DNA of 64,000 nucleotides from Chryseobacterium sp. 52. GTDB lineage: Bacteria > Bacteroidota > Bacteroidia > Flavobacteriales > Weeksellaceae. The stretch spans positions 4,506,001 to 4,570,000 of the forward strand of contig NZ_PEEX01000001.1 in assembly GCF_002754245.1 (NCBI RefSeq), written 5' to 3'. Of this stretch, positions 49,514 to 56,575 are shown piece by piece. The translations under genes and the position numbers were made by a program. The number at the start of each line of letters is the position of its first letter. Positions within the stretch are counted from its first letter, which is position 1. The notes beneath the pieces are model-generated. The model was not told the DNA's origin. It saw only the letters and a program-made list of their open reading frames with translations, and searched no databases.

Positions 49514-49539
49514 AACGTGAATAATCTATTGTTCACGTT
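49514..49539 (+). terminator. Terminator after the PPK2 gene
   Basis: AACGTGAA / TTCACGTT with a 10-base loop, followed by A and a run of nine T. It separates PPK2 from the lipoprotein-exported protein cluster. Confidence 0.8.
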
Positions 49540-49599
49540 ATTTTTTTTTATAAATTTATCAAAAATTAATTTTTTACCCCAAATTATTAAACTTTAGCT

Positions 49600-49977
49600 A
49601 TGAAAAAACAATTATTATTATCAGCAATCGCTGTAATAAGTCTTATTTCCTGCAACAATGAAGGAGCGGCTCTGAATACCGTAGAAAGCATGAAAACCCC
49701 GCAAATGGAGAATTTCGACAAAGCTTTCAAAAGTCTTGGTGACCCTCAGAACAGGCCTACCGAAGAGGAAAAGAAAAGAAATACTTCTGAACTGAGCGAC
49801 AGAAGAAAAGCTCTTCTTGTTCCGGCTTCCAAAGAACTGATCATTTCTTCAGGCATTACAGAAGCTGAACTGACGAGAAAAACCGGTGGTGACATGAGCC
49901 AGATCATTGTTTGGGCCACCAACATCTACATGCAGAAAAGTGACGAGATCCGTAAAAACTTAAAATCAGAGAAATAA
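49600..49977 (+). CDS. Cluster lipoprotein L1
   Basis: Small lipoprotein of 125 residues, first of five near-identical copies. The signal peptide ends in a lipobox LISC with Cys18. The mature part of about 107 residues is strongly charged and probably helical: TVESMKTPQMENFDKAFKSL, NRPTEEEKKRNTSELSDRRK, then LIISSGITEAELTRKTGG and MSQIIVWATNIYMQKSDEIR. No cysteine besides the lipidated one. No family recognised. Its stop is directly followed by the ATG of S1 (no gap), implying translational coupling. Likely outer-membrane anchored, facing unknown. Confidence 0.85.
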   Translation: MKKQLLLSAIAVISLISCNNEGAALNTVESMKTPQMENFDKAFKSLGDPQNRPTEEEKKRNTSELSDRRKALLVPASKELIISSGITEAELTRKTGGDMSQIIVWATNIYMQKSDEIRKNLKSEK

Positions 49978-50526
49978 ATGATAAAAAAGTTTTTACTGGT
50001 GCTTGGCATCTGCTCCGTTTCTTCAGCATATGCTCAGGGAGGAATGCTGATCATTCAGAATTTCACTTCCAATTATGATTTCCACGGAACTATTTATGCC
50101 AACAATAACGTAGGAGGAGGATGTTATCCACTGATCACCTCCAAAGTTCCTGACGCAATAGTAATACCGGCAGGTTCCACTGCGAAATATGAAAATTACA
50201 GAGACCAATATTCTTCGTCTGGCTTCCCGGTTTCCACCTGGATGGTCTATTTAGCGGCAGGATCTCCGGGATCCCCAAGGCCGTGGAGTCATGGCAGCCT
50301 GATACCCGGAGGCGTCATTTCCAATAACACAAAATGGTCTATGTCTAAATTTCAGATGTATCATGCCGGAACTTCAGTACCGGAAACCTACTTCAACGGA
50401 GATATTGGAGAAACAGCTGCTCCCTGCAATACCACTCCTGATAACATTACAACACCCTATGGAAGTGCCAAGTGGTTTACCATCACTACCGGCACAGACG
50501 TATACACTTACCTAATCATTCAATAA
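49978..50526 (+). CDS. Cluster exported protein S1 (type A)
   Basis: Exported protein of 182 residues, signal peptide ending near SAYAQ. The mature part begins with the cluster hallmark strand (GGMLIIQNFTSNYDF) and has two cysteines (GGGCYPL and APCNTT) that could form a disulphide. Other shared segments are YENYRDQYSSS, WSHGSLIPGGVISNNTKW, FQMYHAGTS and, at the C terminus, AKWFTITTGTDVYTYLIIQ. A beta-sandwich is likely from the strand pattern. No T9SS sorting domain is present. No family recognised; it differs from the other type A copies in lacking the SHxGNG segment. Confidence 0.8.
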   Translation: MIKKFLLVLGICSVSSAYAQGGMLIIQNFTSNYDFHGTIYANNNVGGGCYPLITSKVPDAIVIPAGSTAKYENYRDQYSSSGFPVSTWMVYLAAGSPGSPRPWSHGSLIPGGVISNNTKWSMSKFQMYHAGTSVPETYFNGDIGETAAPCNTTPDNITTPYGSAKWFTITTGTDVYTYLIIQ

Positions 50527-50536
50527 CCTTATTACT

Positions 50537-51067
50537 ATGAAAAAGATAACCTTACTTTTATCAGCATTGGCAGGAATTCTTTCTTTTGCCCAGACTTCTC
50601 CTTTAGTTATACAAAACTACAGCGTTTCTGATGCAGTAGGAAGACTGCGTACGGGTATGCCTGGTGGTATATCGGGTCCATATATGTATGCTGCACCTAA
50701 TGCACCTTACGGGTCATACACTGTACCTTCAGGAGCGACTACACAATACAATACATTTAATACATCAGGTACAGCATTTCTCCCTATCACAACATGGTAT
50801 GTTACAGACCCTACCAATCCCGCCAACAATGGGGGCTATCCCTATAATCATTCTTTTATCACAACTGTGATGAATCCTTCGAATGTATGGGCCGGGTTTC
50901 ATTTTTGGCTGACAGATCCTTCGACCGGAAATACGGATACTTACCAGCTGGGAGATCCTACTGTAGATCCTTGGTTCACCAACTCAGGAACGGGTACTTT
51001 TTCAAGCGCGGACTGGTTCACCATAACCACGCCTAGCGGTCCGACCACTTACCTGCAGATCTTTTAA
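50537..51067 (+). CDS. Cluster exported protein S2 (type B)
   Basis: Exported protein of 176 residues with a signal peptide ending near LSFAQ. It shares the first strand (PLVIQNYSVSDAVGRL) and the last (ADWFTITTPSGPTTYLQIF) with type A proteins, but has no cysteine in the mature part and its middle differs: PYMYAAPNAPYGSYTVPSG, ITTWYVTDPTNPANN, YPYNHSFIT. Only S4 is of the same type. It lies 10 bases after S1 and ends the first LSS unit; two hairpins follow. Confidence 0.8.
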   Translation: MKKITLLLSALAGILSFAQTSPLVIQNYSVSDAVGRLRTGMPGGISGPYMYAAPNAPYGSYTVPSGATTQYNTFNTSGTAFLPITTWYVTDPTNPANNGGYPYNHSFITTVMNPSNVWAGFHFWLTDPSTGNTDTYQLGDPTVDPWFTNSGTGTFSSADWFTITTPSGPTTYLQIF

Positions 51068-51073
51068 AAAAAT

Positions 51074-51094
51074 AGCAGCTGTTCTGCAGCTGCT
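51074..51094 (+). terminator. Hairpin, possible terminator, after the first LSS unit
   Basis: AGCAGCTG / CAGCTGCT with a 5-base loop, then TTATTTATT. Directly after the S2 stop. The T tail is interrupted, so termination may be partial. Confidence 0.5.
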
Positions 51095-51118
51095 TATTTA
51101 TTGAGTCCCATTGATACG

Positions 51119-51139
51119 GAAAGCAGCTGTTTTGCTTTC
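51119..51139 (+). other. Second hairpin between LSS units 1 and 2
   Basis: GAAAGCA / TGCTTTC with a 7-base loop containing GCTG, 25 bases after the first hairpin. Both share AGCAGCTG-like sequence. It might stabilise the upstream message or control expression of the following genes. Confidence 0.35.
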
Positions 51140-51189
51140 TGAAGATTTTCTATGTCCAAATTTCAACATCATTTTAATACCATTTAATT

Positions 51190-51567
51190 ATGAAACAACT
51201 TTTTTTAACGGCTGCATTTGCCGTTTTAACATTAGCATCGTGCAGCAATGAAAATACTGCTGTCAATACTGTGGAAAGCATGAAAACGCCACAGATGGAA
51301 AACTTCGACAAAGCCTTTAAAAGCCTGGGTGATCCACAGAACAGACCTACCGAAGAGGAAAGAAAAAGAAATACCTCTGAGCTGAGTGACAGAAGAAAAG
51401 CGCTTCTTATTCCGGCATCGAAAGAACTCATCCTTTCTACAGGCATTACAGAAACTGAACTCACCAGAAAGACCGGAGGCGATATGAGCCAAATTATCGT
51501 TTGGGCTACACAGATCTACATGCAGAAAAGCGACGAAATCCGTAAAAACCTAAAATCCGAGAAATAG
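51190..51567 (+). CDS. Cluster lipoprotein L2
   Basis: Second lipoprotein copy, 125 residues, lipobox LASC with Cys18. The mature sequence is nearly that of L1, with EEERKRNTSELSDRRK and TQIYMQKSDEIRKNLKSEK. The signal peptide (MKQLFLTAAFAVLTLASC) differs more than the mature part, so selection or gene conversion seems to hold the mature part constant. The S3 start lies 3 bases after its stop. Confidence 0.85.
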   Translation: MKQLFLTAAFAVLTLASCSNENTAVNTVESMKTPQMENFDKAFKSLGDPQNRPTEEERKRNTSELSDRRKALLIPASKELILSTGITETELTRKTGGDMSQIIVWATQIYMQKSDEIRKNLKSEK

Positions 51568-51570
51568 AGT

Positions 51571-52074
51571 ATGAAAAAGTTTTTAACCATCATCGGATTA
51601 ATGTCCTTATCATTTGCATATGCTCAGGGAGGGCCGCTTGTTATCAACAATTATACGGGTTATGATTTTCATACAAGACTTACTGCAGCTAATCTTCTTA
51701 CGCCCGGATGTAATTTTTATGTAGCCTTAGACAATCCTGAGCTTGTCATTCCGAGTGGAAATTCAGTAAGTTATAACAGCTACAATATTCCGGGTACGAT
51801 CTGGAAAGTATCCACATCATCTTCGCCTGCAACGCCAAGATCAGGAAGCCATGCAAGTCTTGCTTTGGGTGGAGTGATTTCCAGCAACACCAAATGGGTG
51901 GTATCAGATTTTCAGTTTTATCAGTCCGGAGCCTCTATATCATCGGGAGCTGTGGGTGATACATCTTATACCTGTAATCCTGTTCCAGGTGTTTTCAATA
52001 CTCCGCAAGCGACGGTAGAATGGTTCACAATTACCAGTGGCGGGACCACTTATACCTATGTTCAGGTAAATTAA
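51571..52074 (+). CDS. Cluster exported protein S3 (divergent type A)
   Basis: Shortest S protein, 167 residues; signal peptide ends near FAYAQ. It keeps the first strand (PLVINNYTGYDFHTRL), GGVISSNTKW, FQFYQSG and the final EWFTITSGGTTYTYVQVN, and both cysteines (PGCNFY and YTCNPV). It lacks the YRDQ segment of about 15 residues seen in S1 and S5-S8, so it is an internal-deletion variant or an older branch. It lies 3 bases after L2. Confidence 0.78.
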   Translation: MKKFLTIIGLMSLSFAYAQGGPLVINNYTGYDFHTRLTAANLLTPGCNFYVALDNPELVIPSGNSVSYNSYNIPGTIWKVSTSSSPATPRSGSHASLALGGVISSNTKWVVSDFQFYQSGASISSGAVGDTSYTCNPVPGVFNTPQATVEWFTITSGGTTYTYVQVN

Positions 52075-52129
52075 AAAACTAATATCCTATTCCCATTACA
52101 ATAAATACTAACCCTAAAACGAATTTAAT

Positions 52130-52675
52130 ATGAAAAAGCTAAGTATTATTCTAAGTATCATGGCAGGACTAAGTATTTCTGCGCAATCATCTACTTTGGT
52201 AATCAACAACTACAGCGGTTTTGATGCTGCAGGAAGATTTATGACGATAGGTTCAGCAGGTGCCGGGTCATCACAACCTTATATGTACGCACAACCCAAT
52301 TTACCTTACACGGTATATACCATCCCTGCCGGAGGTTACACTAAATATGACAAGTTTGACAATACAGGAGGGTCTAACCCTATTCCAATAACGGACTGGT
52401 ATTATATTGATCCATTAAACAGTGCTAATACAGCAGTTTATCCATATAATCACCCAACCATCACAGCTGTTACTTCTGTCGATGAATGGATGGGGTTTGC
52501 TTTTTCACTTACAGACAGCACGGGATATACTTATGACACTTTCGAGGTAGGCGACCCTGTACTTTCGGGAGGTTTCCTGAGCACAAGTCAAACGGGCCCC
52601 AACACAGGTTCTTCTGCAGATTGGTTTACGATCACAACTTCCGGAGGTCAGATCACTTATTTTCAGATTTTCTAA
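52130..52675 (+). CDS. Cluster exported protein S4 (type B)
   Basis: Exported protein of 181 residues, signal peptide ending near SISAQ. It pairs with S2 as type B: PYMYAQPNLPYTVYTIPAGG, ITDWYYIDPLNSANT, YPYNHPTIT and the closing ADWFTITTSGGQITYFQIF, with no cysteines. It follows S3 by 55 bases and ends the second LSS unit. In both units that contain it, the type B gene is third, after an L and a type A gene. Confidence 0.8.
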   Translation: MKKLSIILSIMAGLSISAQSSTLVINNYSGFDAAGRFMTIGSAGAGSSQPYMYAQPNLPYTVYTIPAGGYTKYDKFDNTGGSNPIPITDWYYIDPLNSANTAVYPYNHPTITAVTSVDEWMGFAFSLTDSTGYTYDTFEVGDPVLSGGFLSTSQTGPNTGSSADWFTITTSGGQITYFQIF

Positions 52676-52727
52676 TGATGACCAACAATTTTAATATCAT
52701 AAAATTTTAAATTTTTAACCTATAACT

Positions 52728-53105
52728 ATGAAAAAACAACTGTTATTAGCTGCTTTTACCATTTTAACTTTGGCTTCATGCAGCAATGAAGGAAGTGCTG
52801 TGAATACTGTGGAAAGTATGAAAACGCCACCAATGGAAAAATTCGACAAAGCTTTTAAAAGTCTGGGCGATCCACAAAACAGACCTACCGAAGAGGAAAG
52901 AAAAAGAAATACTTCTGAATTAAGCGACAGAAGAAAAGCGCTTCTTGTTCCGGCATCGAAAGAACTCATCCTTTCTACAGGTGTTACAGAAACTGAAATA
53001 TCCAGAAAAACAGGGGACGATATGAGCCAGATTATTGTCTGGGCTACTCAGATTTATATGCAGAAAAGTGATGAAATCCGTAAAAATATTAAGTCAGATA
53101 AATAA
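52728..53105 (+). CDS. Cluster lipoprotein L3
   Basis: Third lipoprotein copy, 125 residues, lipobox LASC with Cys18 and the mature start SNEGSAVNTVESMKTPPMEK. Over the NRPTEEERKRNTSELSDRRK region the DNA is almost the same as in L2, L4 and L5. Together with the next gene it closely matches the pair L5-S8, including the last codons of L and the bases between the two genes, so these pairs come from a recent duplication. S5 begins 3 bases after its stop. Confidence 0.85.
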   Translation: MKKQLLLAAFTILTLASCSNEGSAVNTVESMKTPPMEKFDKAFKSLGDPQNRPTEEERKRNTSELSDRRKALLVPASKELILSTGVTETEISRKTGDDMSQIIVWATQIYMQKSDEIRKNIKSDK

Positions 53106-53108
53106 GCC

Positions 53109-53666
53109 ATGAAAAAAATTTTAACCGTATTAGGAATTACAATAGCTTCTTTCGCCTATTCACAGGGAGGAACTATGATTGTGAACAATTATACCGCATT
53201 TGAATACCGCGGAACGCTGTTCGCTAATAATTTTTCAGGGGGATGCTACCCTATTATTGCAACGAATACGGGAGTAATTATTCCTCCTGATTCCCATACA
53301 GGCAATGGTCATGCCCTGATATACACCAATTACAGGGATCAGTTTACTTTATCTCAGTATCCAATGCCAAACTGGATTGTACACATTGCAGCCAACAGCT
53401 CCAGTGTAAGACCCTGGAACCACGGCAGCCTTATGCCTGGAGGGACATTTTCTCTCAATACAAAGTGGTCTGCAACAAAGTTTGACATGTATGATCCGGC
53501 AACTTCTGCTTATGTTACGGGTTTCCATGCCAATATGAGTATTGCAGCCAACCCCTGTAATACTGCAGTAGATTATTTTGTAACTCCCAGCGGAGCCAAC
53601 AGCGCAGAAATGTTTACAATCACTACCAGTACAGGTTTAATAGAAACATACCTGCAGCTTTATTAG
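53109..53666 (+). CDS. Cluster exported protein S5 (type A)
   Basis: Exported protein of 185 residues, signal peptide ending near FAYSQ. Type A features: first strand TMIVNNYTAFEYRGTLFANN, GGCYP cysteine, SHTGNGHALIYTNYRDQFT, WNHGSLMPGGTFSLNTKW, second cysteine in NPCNT, and the closing EMFTITTSTGLIETYLQLY. It is the only S gene of its unit (L3-S5). The 5' end of the gene is nearly identical to that of S8. Confidence 0.8.
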   Translation: MKKILTVLGITIASFAYSQGGTMIVNNYTAFEYRGTLFANNFSGGCYPIIATNTGVIIPPDSHTGNGHALIYTNYRDQFTLSQYPMPNWIVHIAANSSSVRPWNHGSLMPGGTFSLNTKWSATKFDMYDPATSAYVTGFHANMSIAANPCNTAVDYFVTPSGANSAEMFTITTSTGLIETYLQLY

Positions 53667-53704
53667 GACTCGTTATTATGTATTCATCTAATTAAAATTT
53701 AACT

Positions 53705-54076
53705 ATGAAAAAATATTTTTTATCGGCTGTACTGGCCATTGTAACCCTTGCATCTTGCAGCAACGAAAATACAGCCGTCAATACTGTAGAAAGTATGAAA
53801 ACGCCACAGATGGAAAAATTCGACAAAGCTTTTAAAAGTTTGGGTGATCCGGAGAACAGACCTACTGAAGAGGAAAGAAAAAGAAATACTTCTGAATTAA
53901 GTGACAGAAGAAAGGCACTTCTTGTTCCCTCATCTAAAGAATTAATTCTGTCTACGGGTGTTACAGAAGCTGAACTGACAAGAAAAACAGGCAATGACAT
54001 GAGCCAGATCATCGTTTGGGCTACCCAGATCTATATGCAAAAAAGTGAAGAAATCCGTAAAAACATAAAATCTTAA
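53705..54076 (+). CDS. Cluster lipoprotein L4
   Basis: Fourth copy, 123 residues; it ends two residues early at EIRKNIKS. Lipobox LASC with Cys18. The first 20 bases of the gene equal those of L5, while the rest of the signal peptide differs (SAVLAIVTLASC). The mature part keeps all conserved blocks with PENRPTEEERK and GNDMSQIIVWATQ. The gap to S6 is 11 bases, the longest of the five L-S junctions. Confidence 0.85.
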   Translation: MKKYFLSAVLAIVTLASCSNENTAVNTVESMKTPQMEKFDKAFKSLGDPENRPTEEERKRNTSELSDRRKALLVPSSKELILSTGVTEAELTRKTGNDMSQIIVWATQIYMQKSEEIRKNIKS

Positions 54077-54087
54077 AAATAACGATC

Positions 54088-54651
54088 ATGAAAAAAGTCT
54101 TAACATTACTGGGCATTGCAGCTTTTTCTTTTGCCTATTCACAGGGAGGTACTCTTATCCTCAATAATTATTCCGCATATGATTTCTCAGGATTCATAGT
54201 GGCTAACAATTTTGCAGGAGGCTGTTATCCTTATATCAGCTCCAACAATCCTGATATGGTAACGGTTCCGGCTAATTCCCATATGGGTAATGGAAATGAA
54301 CTGAAATACAGCAACTACAGAGATCAGTACACTTCTTCCTTATACCCGATGACCTCCTGGCATGTAACTACATCAGCCGCACCCGGTTTAGCAAGATTAT
54401 GGAACCATCCGTCTATGATGCCGGGAGGAGTTTTCTCGAATAATACCAAATGGGCAACGACAAAATTTGTAATGTATTATCCCGGAACAACAAATCTGGC
54501 CCCTGATAATTTTAACGGTGCCATAACGCTCGCGGGCAATACGTGCTACACTGCTTCTGATTATCTGGTTACTTCCTCAGGAAACAACAGTGCAGAAATA
54601 TTTACTATCGTGAACGGAGGGACTACTTACACCTATATCCAACTTTATTAA
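54088..54651 (+). CDS. Cluster exported protein S6 (type A)
   Basis: Longest S protein, 187 residues, with a signal peptide ending near FAYSQ. Features: TLILNNYSAYDFSGFIVANN, GGCYPYIS, SHMGNGNELKYSNYRDQYTSS, WNHPSMMPGGVFSNNTKW, a second cysteine in GNTCYT, and a final EIFTIVNGGTTYTYIQLY. The PANSHMGNG segment is shared with S8. It is followed 12 bases later by a second type A gene, so this unit has two A genes rather than an A and a B. Confidence 0.8.
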   Translation: MKKVLTLLGIAAFSFAYSQGGTLILNNYSAYDFSGFIVANNFAGGCYPYISSNNPDMVTVPANSHMGNGNELKYSNYRDQYTSSLYPMTSWHVTTSAAPGLARLWNHPSMMPGGVFSNNTKWATTKFVMYYPGTTNLAPDNFNGAITLAGNTCYTASDYLVTSSGNNSAEIFTIVNGGTTYTYIQLY

Positions 54652-54663
54652 TCTGATGTAATC

Positions 54664-55221
54664 ATGAAAAAGATATTTACCATTCTTTCATTGTCGCTGC
54701 TGTCATCTGCTTATGCCCAGAGCAGTCTTATGATAGTCAACAATTACTCAACCACCTTTGACTTTCAGGGTAATATCGGTGCTCATAATTTCTCAGGGAG
54801 CTGCTATCCGTATATGACATCCAGTACTCCTACAGCAATCACTGTACCTGCAGATTCGCATATTTCCAACGGTAAAGAACTGGCCTACAAAAACTTCAGG
54901 GACCAGTTTACAGGATCTTTATATCCTACGACAAACTGGACATTGCAGCTGTCTCCTGCTTCATCTCAGGTAAGAGCCTGGAATCACATGAGTATAGCCC
55001 CGGGTGGCGTGATTTCTTCTAATGTTAAATGGGCTTCTTCACAGTTTCAGATGTACTATGCGGGAACCTCTACGCCGGAGCCTTCTTTCGGAGGCCTCAT
55101 TGGTGAATCTCCTGATCCGTGTACAGGGGCCAGCGGATATATTTCAACGCCGTACGGAGATGCAGAATGGTTCAACATCACGACCAACAATGTGGATTAT
55201 TCCTATTTACAAATTTATTAA
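54664..55221 (+). CDS. Cluster exported protein S7 (type A)
   Basis: Exported protein of 185 residues; signal peptide ends near SAYAQ. Type A blocks: LMIVNNYSTTFDFQGNIGAHN, GSCYPYMT, SHISNGKELAYKNFRDQFTGS, WNHMSIAPGGVISSNVKW, FQMYYAGTSTPEPSFGGLIG, a second cysteine in PDPCTG, and the end AEWFNITTNNVDYSYLQIY. It ends the fourth unit (L4-S6-S7). Its sequence is closest to S1 in the TSTPE and GxIGE region. Confidence 0.8.
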   Translation: MKKIFTILSLSLLSSAYAQSSLMIVNNYSTTFDFQGNIGAHNFSGSCYPYMTSSTPTAITVPADSHISNGKELAYKNFRDQFTGSLYPTTNWTLQLSPASSQVRAWNHMSIAPGGVISSNVKWASSQFQMYYAGTSTPEPSFGGLIGESPDPCTGASGYISTPYGDAEWFNITTNNVDYSYLQIY

Positions 55222-55255
55222 TCAAAAAAAAATCCAACCTAAATTCTAATTAATT

Positions 55256-55633
55256 ATGAAAAAATATTTTTTATCAGCCGCTTTTGCCACTTTAGCATTA
55301 CTATCGTGCAACAATGAAGGGAGTGCCGTAAATACGGTAGAAAGTATGAAGACCCCATCAATGGAAAAATTTGACAAAGCTTTTAAAAGTTTAGGAAATC
55401 CGGAGAACAGGCCTACCGAAGAGGAAAGAAAAAGAAATACTTCCGAGTTGAGCGACAGAAGAAAAGCGCTTCTTGTTCCTGCATCGAAAGAATTAATTCT
55501 GTCTACAGGGGTTACAGAAGCCGAACTGACAAGAAAAACAGGTGACGATATGAGCCAGATTATCGTTTGGGCTACCCAGATCTATATGCAGAAGAGCGAT
55601 GAAATCCGTAAAAACATTAAGTCAGATAAATAA
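55256..55633 (+). CDS. Cluster lipoprotein L5
   Basis: Fifth copy, 125 residues, lipobox LLSC with Cys18. The mature part begins NNEGSAVNTVESMKTPSMEK and ends EIRKNIKSDK as in L3. Conserved blocks are unchanged. The junction to S8 (TAAATC, then ATG) is the same length as that of L3-S5 with one base changed. Confidence 0.85.
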   Translation: MKKYFLSAAFATLALLSCNNEGSAVNTVESMKTPSMEKFDKAFKSLGNPENRPTEEERKRNTSELSDRRKALLVPASKELILSTGVTEAELTRKTGDDMSQIIVWATQIYMQKSDEIRKNIKSDK

Positions 55634-55636
55634 ATC

Positions 55637-56188
55637 ATGAAAAAGATTTTAACCGTATTAGGAATAGCAGTGGCTTCAATTGCCTATTCTCAGGGAATGT
55701 TCATGCTTAACAATTACTCACCGCATGATTTTCGCGGAAACCTTATGGCACTGAATCTCAATGGCTGCGTTCCTGCCGTGATGAACAACGACCCCGCTGT
55801 GATGATCGTTCCTGCCAACTCTCACATGGGAAATGGTCTTGCATGGAAAATAGATAATTACAGAGATCAGTTCAGTACATCTCTTTACCCTGTTACCAAT
55901 TGGATCGTAACGCTAGGACCGTCGCCTTCGACCATAAGACAATGGAACAATCCAAGCCTTATGCCTGGTGGCGTCATTTCCAACAATACCAAATGGCTCA
56001 CTTCGAAGTTCCAGATGTATTATGCCGGAACAGGTAATAAAGTAATAGGATTTAATCAAAGTGTCGGAGATGCTACGCCCAATCTGTGTACTACCAGTGT
56101 TGATTATTTTTCGACTCCGGATGGCTCTGCAGAATGGTTTACAATTGCAGGAACTGAAACGATAACTTACTTTCAGATCTATCCATAA
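55637..56188 (+). CDS. Cluster exported protein S8 (type A)
   Basis: Exported protein of 183 residues and last of the cluster; signal peptide ends near IAYSQ. Features: MFMLNNYSPHDFRGNLMALN, a cysteine in NGCVPA (GCYP is changed), PANSHMGNGLAWKIDNYRDQF, WNNPSLMPGGVISNNTKW, a second cysteine in NLCTTS, and the closing AEWFTIAGTETITYFQIYP. A strong terminator follows immediately, marking the end of the cluster transcript. Confidence 0.8.
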   Translation: MKKILTVLGIAVASIAYSQGMFMLNNYSPHDFRGNLMALNLNGCVPAVMNNDPAVMIVPANSHMGNGLAWKIDNYRDQFSTSLYPVTNWIVTLGPSPSTIRQWNNPSLMPGGVISNNTKWLTSKFQMYYAGTGNKVIGFNQSVGDATPNLCTTSVDYFSTPDGSAEWFTIAGTETITYFQIYP

Positions 56189-56189
56189 A

Positions 56190-56215
56190 AAAAGCGGAGA
56201 CTTATCTCCGCTTTT
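56190..56215 (+). terminator. Terminator of the L-S cluster
   Basis: AAAAGCGGAGA / TCTCCGCTTTT, an 11-bp perfect stem with a 4-base loop and a T-rich tail, directly after the S8 stop. It could also stop rnpB transcription from the other side. Confidence 0.9.
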
Positions 56216-56247
56216 CTTTTTTATAAAATATTATACTGTTCATAAAA

Positions 56248-56575
56248 ATCGCGAGAGAATCTGTAAGCCGGATTTTGTCCTTCCGAAGAAGTGCCTGTTA
56301 TTTATCTACGCTTTACATTGCTGCAAAACTTGAGCTGATTACCCCTCGGTTTTCAGGACGAGCCGCCCCTATTTCCATTACTGAAAAGAACCGATATACT
56401 TATCATTGCACCACAAAGAGTTTACCTGGTTTCACTACAGCCGAACTGTACCTGCTTTCTGTTGCACTTGTCCTACCCTCACGGGTGACGGATGTTATCC
56501 GCTTTGATGCTCTATGGTGTCCGGACTTTCCTACCCCTGCCGAAACAGGAATCAACAAGCCGATTTTCTCGCGGT
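56248..56575 (-). ncRNA. rnpB: RNase P RNA (class A)
   Basis: Catalytic RNA of RNase P, which trims the 5' ends of tRNA precursors; about 328 bases. The minus strand carries the universal P4 halves: GGAAAGTCCGGACACC near the 5' end and ACAAAATCCGGCTTACAG near the 3' end. The ends CGCGAGA and TCTCGCG pair as P1. The central AGGGGCGGC and GAGGGTAGGACAAGTGCAACAG-like regions (shown here only in part) also match bacterial type A RNAs. Ends were set from P1 and from the promoter at 56578-56585. Confidence 0.95.

Follow-up and report, generated by a model that had tools for sequence, protein, structure and literature searches.

The window, 64,000 nucleotides from the genome of Chryseobacterium sp. 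52 (contig NZ_PEEX01000001.1, positions 4,506,001 to 4,570,000), carries between positions 49600 and 56188 an array of genes that encode only two kinds of protein, a lipoprotein (L) and an exported protein (S), in the order LSS-LSS-LS-LSS-LS. It is tentatively proposed that this array specifies a panel of exported binding proteins, the S proteins, together with one shared lipoprotein partner, L. The proposal is built on a contrast in the evolution of the two genes, namely partial homogenisation of L within a genome as opposed to stability of the interleaved S types, and on the near-constant pairing of L and S in relatives.

All 13 open reading frames (ORFs) of the array are intact and lie on the forward strand, as the original prediction, made from the letters of the sequence, had read them. 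The lipoprotein copies of the window are named L1 to L5, while handles of the type L007 denote loci and those of the type G000 denote genomes. The first unit consists of L1 (49600–49977, 125 amino acids), S1a (49978–50526, two cysteines, S group 17) and S1b (50537–51067, no cysteine, group 5), and the second of L2 (51190–51567, 125 amino acids), S2a (51571–52074, two cysteines, group 8) and S2b (52130–52675, no cysteine, group 6). These are followed by L3 (52728–53105, 125 amino acids) with S3a (53109–53666, two cysteines, group 14), by L4 (53705–54076, 123 amino acids) with S4a (54088–54651, two cysteines, group 16; mature part from 54145) and S4b (54664–55221, two cysteines, group 18), and by L5 (55256–55633, 125 amino acids) with S5a (55637–56188, two cysteines, group 11). 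The gaps from L to S amount to 0, 3, 3, 11 and 3 bases, which is the range of 0 to 11 claimed earlier, and make coupled translation of L and S plausible; those from S to the following L measure 34–122 bases. The array would likely form one long transcription unit; a promoter was not identified in the sequence of the array region. The array has a G+C content of 40.9%, as compared with 36.9% for the rest of the window. Since both genes and their L-then-S order are conserved in relatives, a chance origin of the array is excluded.

The nearest-relative and S-order analyses covered 100 L and 159 S genes from 18 loci, the partial or divergent loci L021, L023, L026, L027 and L028 having been removed. 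Judged by synonymous difference, 35 of 82 L copies other than the first of their array have their nearest relative in the same genome (label shuffles: mean 3.9, maximum 14), while this is the case for only 8 of 123 non-first S copies (mean 6.2, maximum 17). The synonymous difference between L copies is smaller within than between genomes in 17 of the 18 loci and equal in one; S does not show such a shift, save for a few recent duplicates (L013, L014 and L016). The first L copy behaves differently, with the nearest relative found in the same genome in 2 of 18 cases, and in the L tree (L and S trees were built from 10 loci) L1 clusters with most other first copies, those of L018 and L025 being placed elsewhere. 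With the cut-off that was applied, 20 groups of S proteins can be distinguished, and 12 of these are present in at least six loci. The groups follow a largely shared order (17.5, 8, 6, 14 or 15, 16.9.18, 10, 11.3), from which L016, L019 and L025 depart. One, two or three S genes follow an L gene, depending on the species, so that an arrangement L-8.6 in one species corresponds to L-8 plus L-6 in another. The median ratio of nonsynonymous to synonymous substitution (dN/dS) is 0.07 for L1 and 0.14 for both S1a and S1b (18 sequences each, with L021, L025 and L026 left out), and S1a and S1b are 74–75% identical between species. Given that L is partly homogenised and that the S proteins represent ancient types in shared order with variable placement of L, the lipoprotein looks generic and not tied to one S. 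A rather uniform L beside a distinct set of S types argues against a tightly matched L-S immunity as well as against rapid antigenic change.

These results agree with one of two patterns put forward in the original prediction, variable exported proteins with a constant lipoprotein: within a genome, the L copies show partial concerted evolution, which is not seen for the S copies, and the number of S genes per L varies with the S order largely kept. The other pattern, an exported partner with an anchor, chaperone or immunity protein, fares less uniformly, in that a matched immunity protein or an S-specific chaperone is made less likely by the homogenisation and variable placement of L.

The pairing of both genes extends well beyond the window. 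Of 171 distinct L genes in the loci analysed, 155 are directly followed by S (within 300 bases after L, E ≤ 1e-5) and ten are at the end of a locus. The six that fail this test comprise L025 and L050, where L is last in the array, L087 with the order L-L-S, L129 and L151 with an S match below the threshold, and L138 with an ORF that is S-like by eye and gave no match. An occurrence of L and S far apart in other genomes, named at the outset as an observation that would speak against a common system, is thus seldom seen. The genus, family and order counts of L, S and the third gene P (see below) are lower bounds, as part of the first-look candidates was scored. Among 148 genomes of the genus, L is found in at least 58 and S in at least 54, with both in 53; G055 has S only, and of five genomes with L only, G013, G063, G084 and G124 have an S-like gene beside L when wider profiles are used. 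The family sample of 296 genomes contains L in at least 63, which belong to 6 of 33 genera; one of these genera is represented by a doubtful match (G157, E 7e-4, N-terminus only). In the order-wide sample, likewise of 296 genomes, at least six, which all belong to the window's genus, have L at E ≤ 1e-6, and at least 15 have S at E ≤ 0.001, eight of them outside the genus (E 4e-7 to 1e-3).

Several loci differ from the array in organization. In G115 (L131, L149), the fifth of the genomes with L only, an interrupted L is present, S was not detected, and a P gene lies downstream. Four genomes have a stand-alone L-S pair with a strongly diverged S (L097, L098, L100 and L137), close to a gene which we take, by eye, to be dnaN-like. 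In G085 there is a separate, expanded array (L150, 6092–16361), whose S genes belong to another subtype and whose L copies are almost identical. The genome of the window (5.30 Mb, single contig) itself contains a sixth, distant L-S pair outside the array (G000:C1:4380392-4381303). This pair is followed by what are presumably, judged by eye, genes for an alpha/beta hydrolase-like and a peptidase-like exported protein (L029, 10393–12328 and beyond).

The L proteins have 123–125 amino acids, L2 to L5 being 80–85% identical to L1, and possess a signal peptide with a lipobox cysteine; the cysteine originally described, Cys18, follows a hydrophobic stretch in all five copies. Of two L proteins scanned, one gave a hit to the Pfam lipobox model that fell short of the cut-off. 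The single-chain structure model is all helical (predicted local distance difference test score, pLDDT, 85.8). Searches of two window L proteins against Pfam and NCBIfam gave no convincing match to any annotated family.

The S proteins have the predicted length of 167–187 amino acids and are far more diverse, the other seven being 27–56% identical to the copy at 53109. There are 13 invariant alignment columns among the eight, and the WFTI...TYxQI-like end that had been ascribed to all of them holds as a tendency and not as a strict rule. The mature proteins have a mass of 15.7–18.4 kDa and an isoelectric point (pI) of 4.1–5.9 (n = 8); their cysteines number two in six copies and none in those at 50537 and 52130. 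For the mature part of S4a, from 54145 on, AlphaFold2 yielded a single-chain model of a beta-sandwich with a pLDDT of 94.3. The best fold matches of the model are weak and include membrane-binding sandwiches, with scores in the range that the tool calls common. No convincing family match was obtained for the eight window S proteins in Pfam (E up to 10) and NCBIfam, in line with the earlier statement that no well-described family is recognised for either protein. The type IX sorting domain (TIGR04183/PF18962) was matched by none of the eight S proteins and by neither of the two L proteins scanned in NCBIfam and Pfam. A pointer in the other direction is the UniRef name of an S homologue, P0127, which starts with 'T9SS C-terminal target domain'.

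On this basis the following scenario can be drawn for the shared partner. L would be translated first and then be lipidated and anchored, as suggested by its lipobox, and S would be exported by means of a type I signal peptide. Most likely, S would then dock on L, or be handed over by L, in the envelope. The S proteins would constitute a panel of exported beta-sandwiches, of which roughly a dozen types that separated long ago occur among the relatives in largely shared order; L would be a generic helical lipoprotein of the envelope, with copies made together with S. The changing S neighbours of L between species suggest that L may serve any S, and binding targets probably differ among the S types.

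A number of observations weigh against this scenario. Contact between L and S is something that we infer, the structure models covering single chains. In the comparison of nearest relatives, 47 of 82 non-first L copies have theirs in another genome, and the mean between-genome identity of L is 0.897 when the first following S belongs to the same group and 0.872 when it does not, a value reached in 0 of 500 within-genome shuffles. Homogenisation of L is therefore incomplete, as L identity still slightly tracks the group of its partner S; some residual L-S matching or plain orthology remains. The homogenisation could also be a by-product of high similarity with no functional need. In a structure alignment of 123 S sequences, loops are no more variable than strands (mean entropy 2.05 and 2.13, respectively), and a hypervariable binding site is for this reason not evident. 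Finally, the N-terminus of mature L does not support a location on the outer surface. According to PMC5080379, the lipoprotein export signal (LES) of surface-exported Bacteroidetes lipoproteins lies just behind Cys+1 and consists of a polar or basic residue followed by two acidic ones. Of 151 distinct mature L sequences, 145 have glutamate at +4, mostly as C-[NS]-N-E, and acidic residues are not among the common ones at +2, +3, +5 and +6. The N-terminus of L is accordingly a misfit to the published motif, though the motif of this genus may be another.

Consideration of the neighbours of S in other genomes leads to a second account, by which L and S would be accessories of type IX secretion or surface attachment that fold, deliver or cap a propeller-like surface protein, P, or other type IX cargo where P is absent. 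P is an ORF of 584–619 amino acids that immediately follows S in G101 (two L-S-P copies in tandem), G159, G186, G167, G033, G161 and G192, which belong to six genera, five others of the family and, with two congeners, the window's own. All five P proteins scanned (two from G101, and those of G159, G186 and G167) exceed the 23-bit cut-off of the sorting-domain model TIGR04183, and four exceed that of PF18962, the fifth being 0.5 bits short; propeller-repeat models were matched below their cut-offs. In G101, the S stop and the likely P start are two bases apart. A further hint comes from one site that has L-S in G058 (L151, 9951–12858) and G013 (L154, 9196–10141) and P alone in G087 (L163, 1459–3285); by eye, we take this to be the interval between clpC and mnmA. 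P often stands alone, however: its homologues occur in at least 38 of 197 family genomes at E ≤ 1e-20, some within much longer frames, and an S-like gene is directly upstream in 6 of 24 P loci inspected (L159, L160, L162, L164, L180 and L181; of 30 P loci). No S was seen upstream in the five loci listed of the weaker set L182–L187. In the window's genome, no P match was obtained at E ≤ 1e-20 among 7 of 47 candidates scored. Decay is also common, several L-S-P loci being interrupted or split: G159 and G186 have an interrupted L, in G161 both S and P are split, and P is in pieces in G192, where no L is seen because a contig end is nearby. The accessory function is, on balance, considered unlikely. 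In the shared-partner scenario, the array of the window would represent an expansion of L-S without P, as compared to the L-S-P module of other genera.

Unlikely to a similar extent is that the S proteins are membrane-active antagonists of competitors, with L as a common immunity lipoprotein against all of them. A toxin and its immunity protein usually diverge together. By that standard S and L do not behave as a toxin with cognate immunity, since partial homogenisation affects L and not S, with a slight residual L-S match. The low median dN/dS of 0.14 and the between-species identity of S1a and S1b do not indicate an arms race. No Pfam toxin family was matched by the eight window S proteins or by 123 S sequences (E up to 0.1), a MACPF match is missing from the window's genome, and the resemblance of the S fold to membrane-binding sandwiches has scores within the range that the tool calls common. 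That S represents variable surface antigens, changed by recombination or switching to escape recognition, is very improbable, as the many divergent tandem copies and their species-dependent number are offset by the recurrence of S types across species in order and sequence, by purifying selection on S1a and S1b, and by the lack of an excess of same-genome nearest S relatives (8 of 123 versus 6.2 in shuffles).

Summarizing, the panel of binding proteins with a shared lipoprotein is preferred. It can be extended to a broader scheme which is possible but more doubtful. In this scheme L-S(-P) would be an undescribed envelope module of one family, in which a generic helical lipoprotein escorts or displays interchangeable beta-sandwich binders; at first, the module would have been coupled with a propeller secreted by the type IX route. 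The lineage of the window would have turned the module into a mix-and-match array, where gene conversion holds L constant and the ordered S types give different specificities.

The array is located between ppk2 and the RNase P RNA gene, the latter being identified with Rfam at 56248–56571 on the minus strand. By eye, its neighbours are presumably genes for a valyl-tRNA synthetase, PPK2 and an extracytoplasmic function (ECF) sigma factor. The flanking genes of the window were matched on both sides in 17 of 22 named loci (L007–L028), on the sigma factor side in L018 and L021 and on the PPK2 side in L023 and L027; in L028 neither flank matches. In 14 of 20 examined genomes devoid of L (out of 90), PPK2 and RNase P RNA are 10–128 bases apart, while the distance is about 970 and about 610 bases in L199 and L208; in four of the 20, RNase P RNA was not found within the flank searched. 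With the empty site closed in most of the L-less genomes examined, it appears that genomes either carry the array as a block at this fixed position or lack it. In C. luteum, one contig (L027) ends with the PPK2 side and a truncated L, and a different contig (L018) bears an array that has no PPK2 upstream; this may point to a second array, to a rearrangement or to a fault of the assembly.

Pattern scans revealed, on the forward strand, a terminator-like hairpin with a T tail after the PPK2-like gene, at the upstream limit of the array (49514–49549), and another with 11 pairs and a T tail at its end (56190–56225). The latter is about 30 bases from the convergent RNase P RNA gene on the opposite strand, and by eye its GCGGAGA stem is present in 10 of 15 aligned rows. 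Each such site alone is weak evidence, since eight were counted in the region and shuffled sequences gave a mean of 5.5 (standard deviation 2.7). The spacer between units 1 and 2 (51068–51189 in the window) has a length of 122–138 bases in 17 of 18 loci and of 106 in L025, and in most loci it contains a GC-rich hairpin with a few compensatory changes. In the window this hairpin (51074–51094, forward strand; pattern scan and alignment) is kept in most of 18 aligned relatives. It has eight pairs, each broken or gapped in 1–4 of 18 rows, and for three of the pairs at least one sequence has changes on both sides that preserve the pairing; the covariation term of 0.17 (18 rows) lends no net support. 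The element is possibly an attenuator or a processing site. A second hairpin-like stretch in the same spacer (51117–51141, forward strand), found by pattern scan, is absent from the RNAalifold consensus.

The significance of the system lies in the finding that two genes, both without usable annotation, are almost always paired, and that in other genera the gene of a type IX-secreted protein joins them as a third member. It is unusual for a constant gene to be partly homogenised while the variable genes interleaved with it are stable. If L is a shared partner, one L should work with any S, and the pair would offer a handle on the envelope placement of proteins lacking a type IX sorting domain in these bacteria.

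In comparison with known systems, both protein families appear to be undescribed in the libraries and literature searched; no description of the L and S genes was found in the one open-access library consulted, and PADLOC models of anti-phage defence matched none of six L and S proteins. The nearest known systems include beta-sandwiches of the aegerolysin and actinoporin type (OlyA, PlyA, RahU, Cry34Ab1 and the actinoporin Fav) and the type II-secreted Legionella protein NttC (6sjt). Aegerolysins, as characterized in PMC9505663, are proteins of 15–20 kDa with a low isoelectric point, and some are listed there without a partner; the eight mature S proteins, at 15.7–18.4 kDa and pI 4.1–5.9, fit this trait. 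The aegerolysin profile PF06355 was matched by none of the eight window S proteins (E up to 10) and none of 123 S sequences (E up to 0.1), and neither set matched the actinoporin and fungal lectin families of Pfam. The partner of two-component aegerolysin pores, MACPF (PF01823), gave no match in the one genome searched, that of the window, with the control matching 1 of 14. Unlike aegerolysins, S has a signal peptide, mostly two cysteines and a lipoprotein gene as neighbour. P after S in other genomes is type IX cargo with a type A sorting domain, from which the window S and scanned L proteins differ in having no sorting-domain match, and the window array in having no P. Other bacteria possess tandem lipoprotein arrays and effector-immunity arrays, which share with the window array the repeated lipoprotein or partner genes beside variable exported proteins, so that a constant partner with a variable tandem set would seem to have analogues. 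The window array differs from these in that none of the genes inside it was recognised as an annotated effector, toxin or secretion gene; moreover, it is the constant L that is partly homogenised here, while the variable S genes are stable and largely colinear between species.

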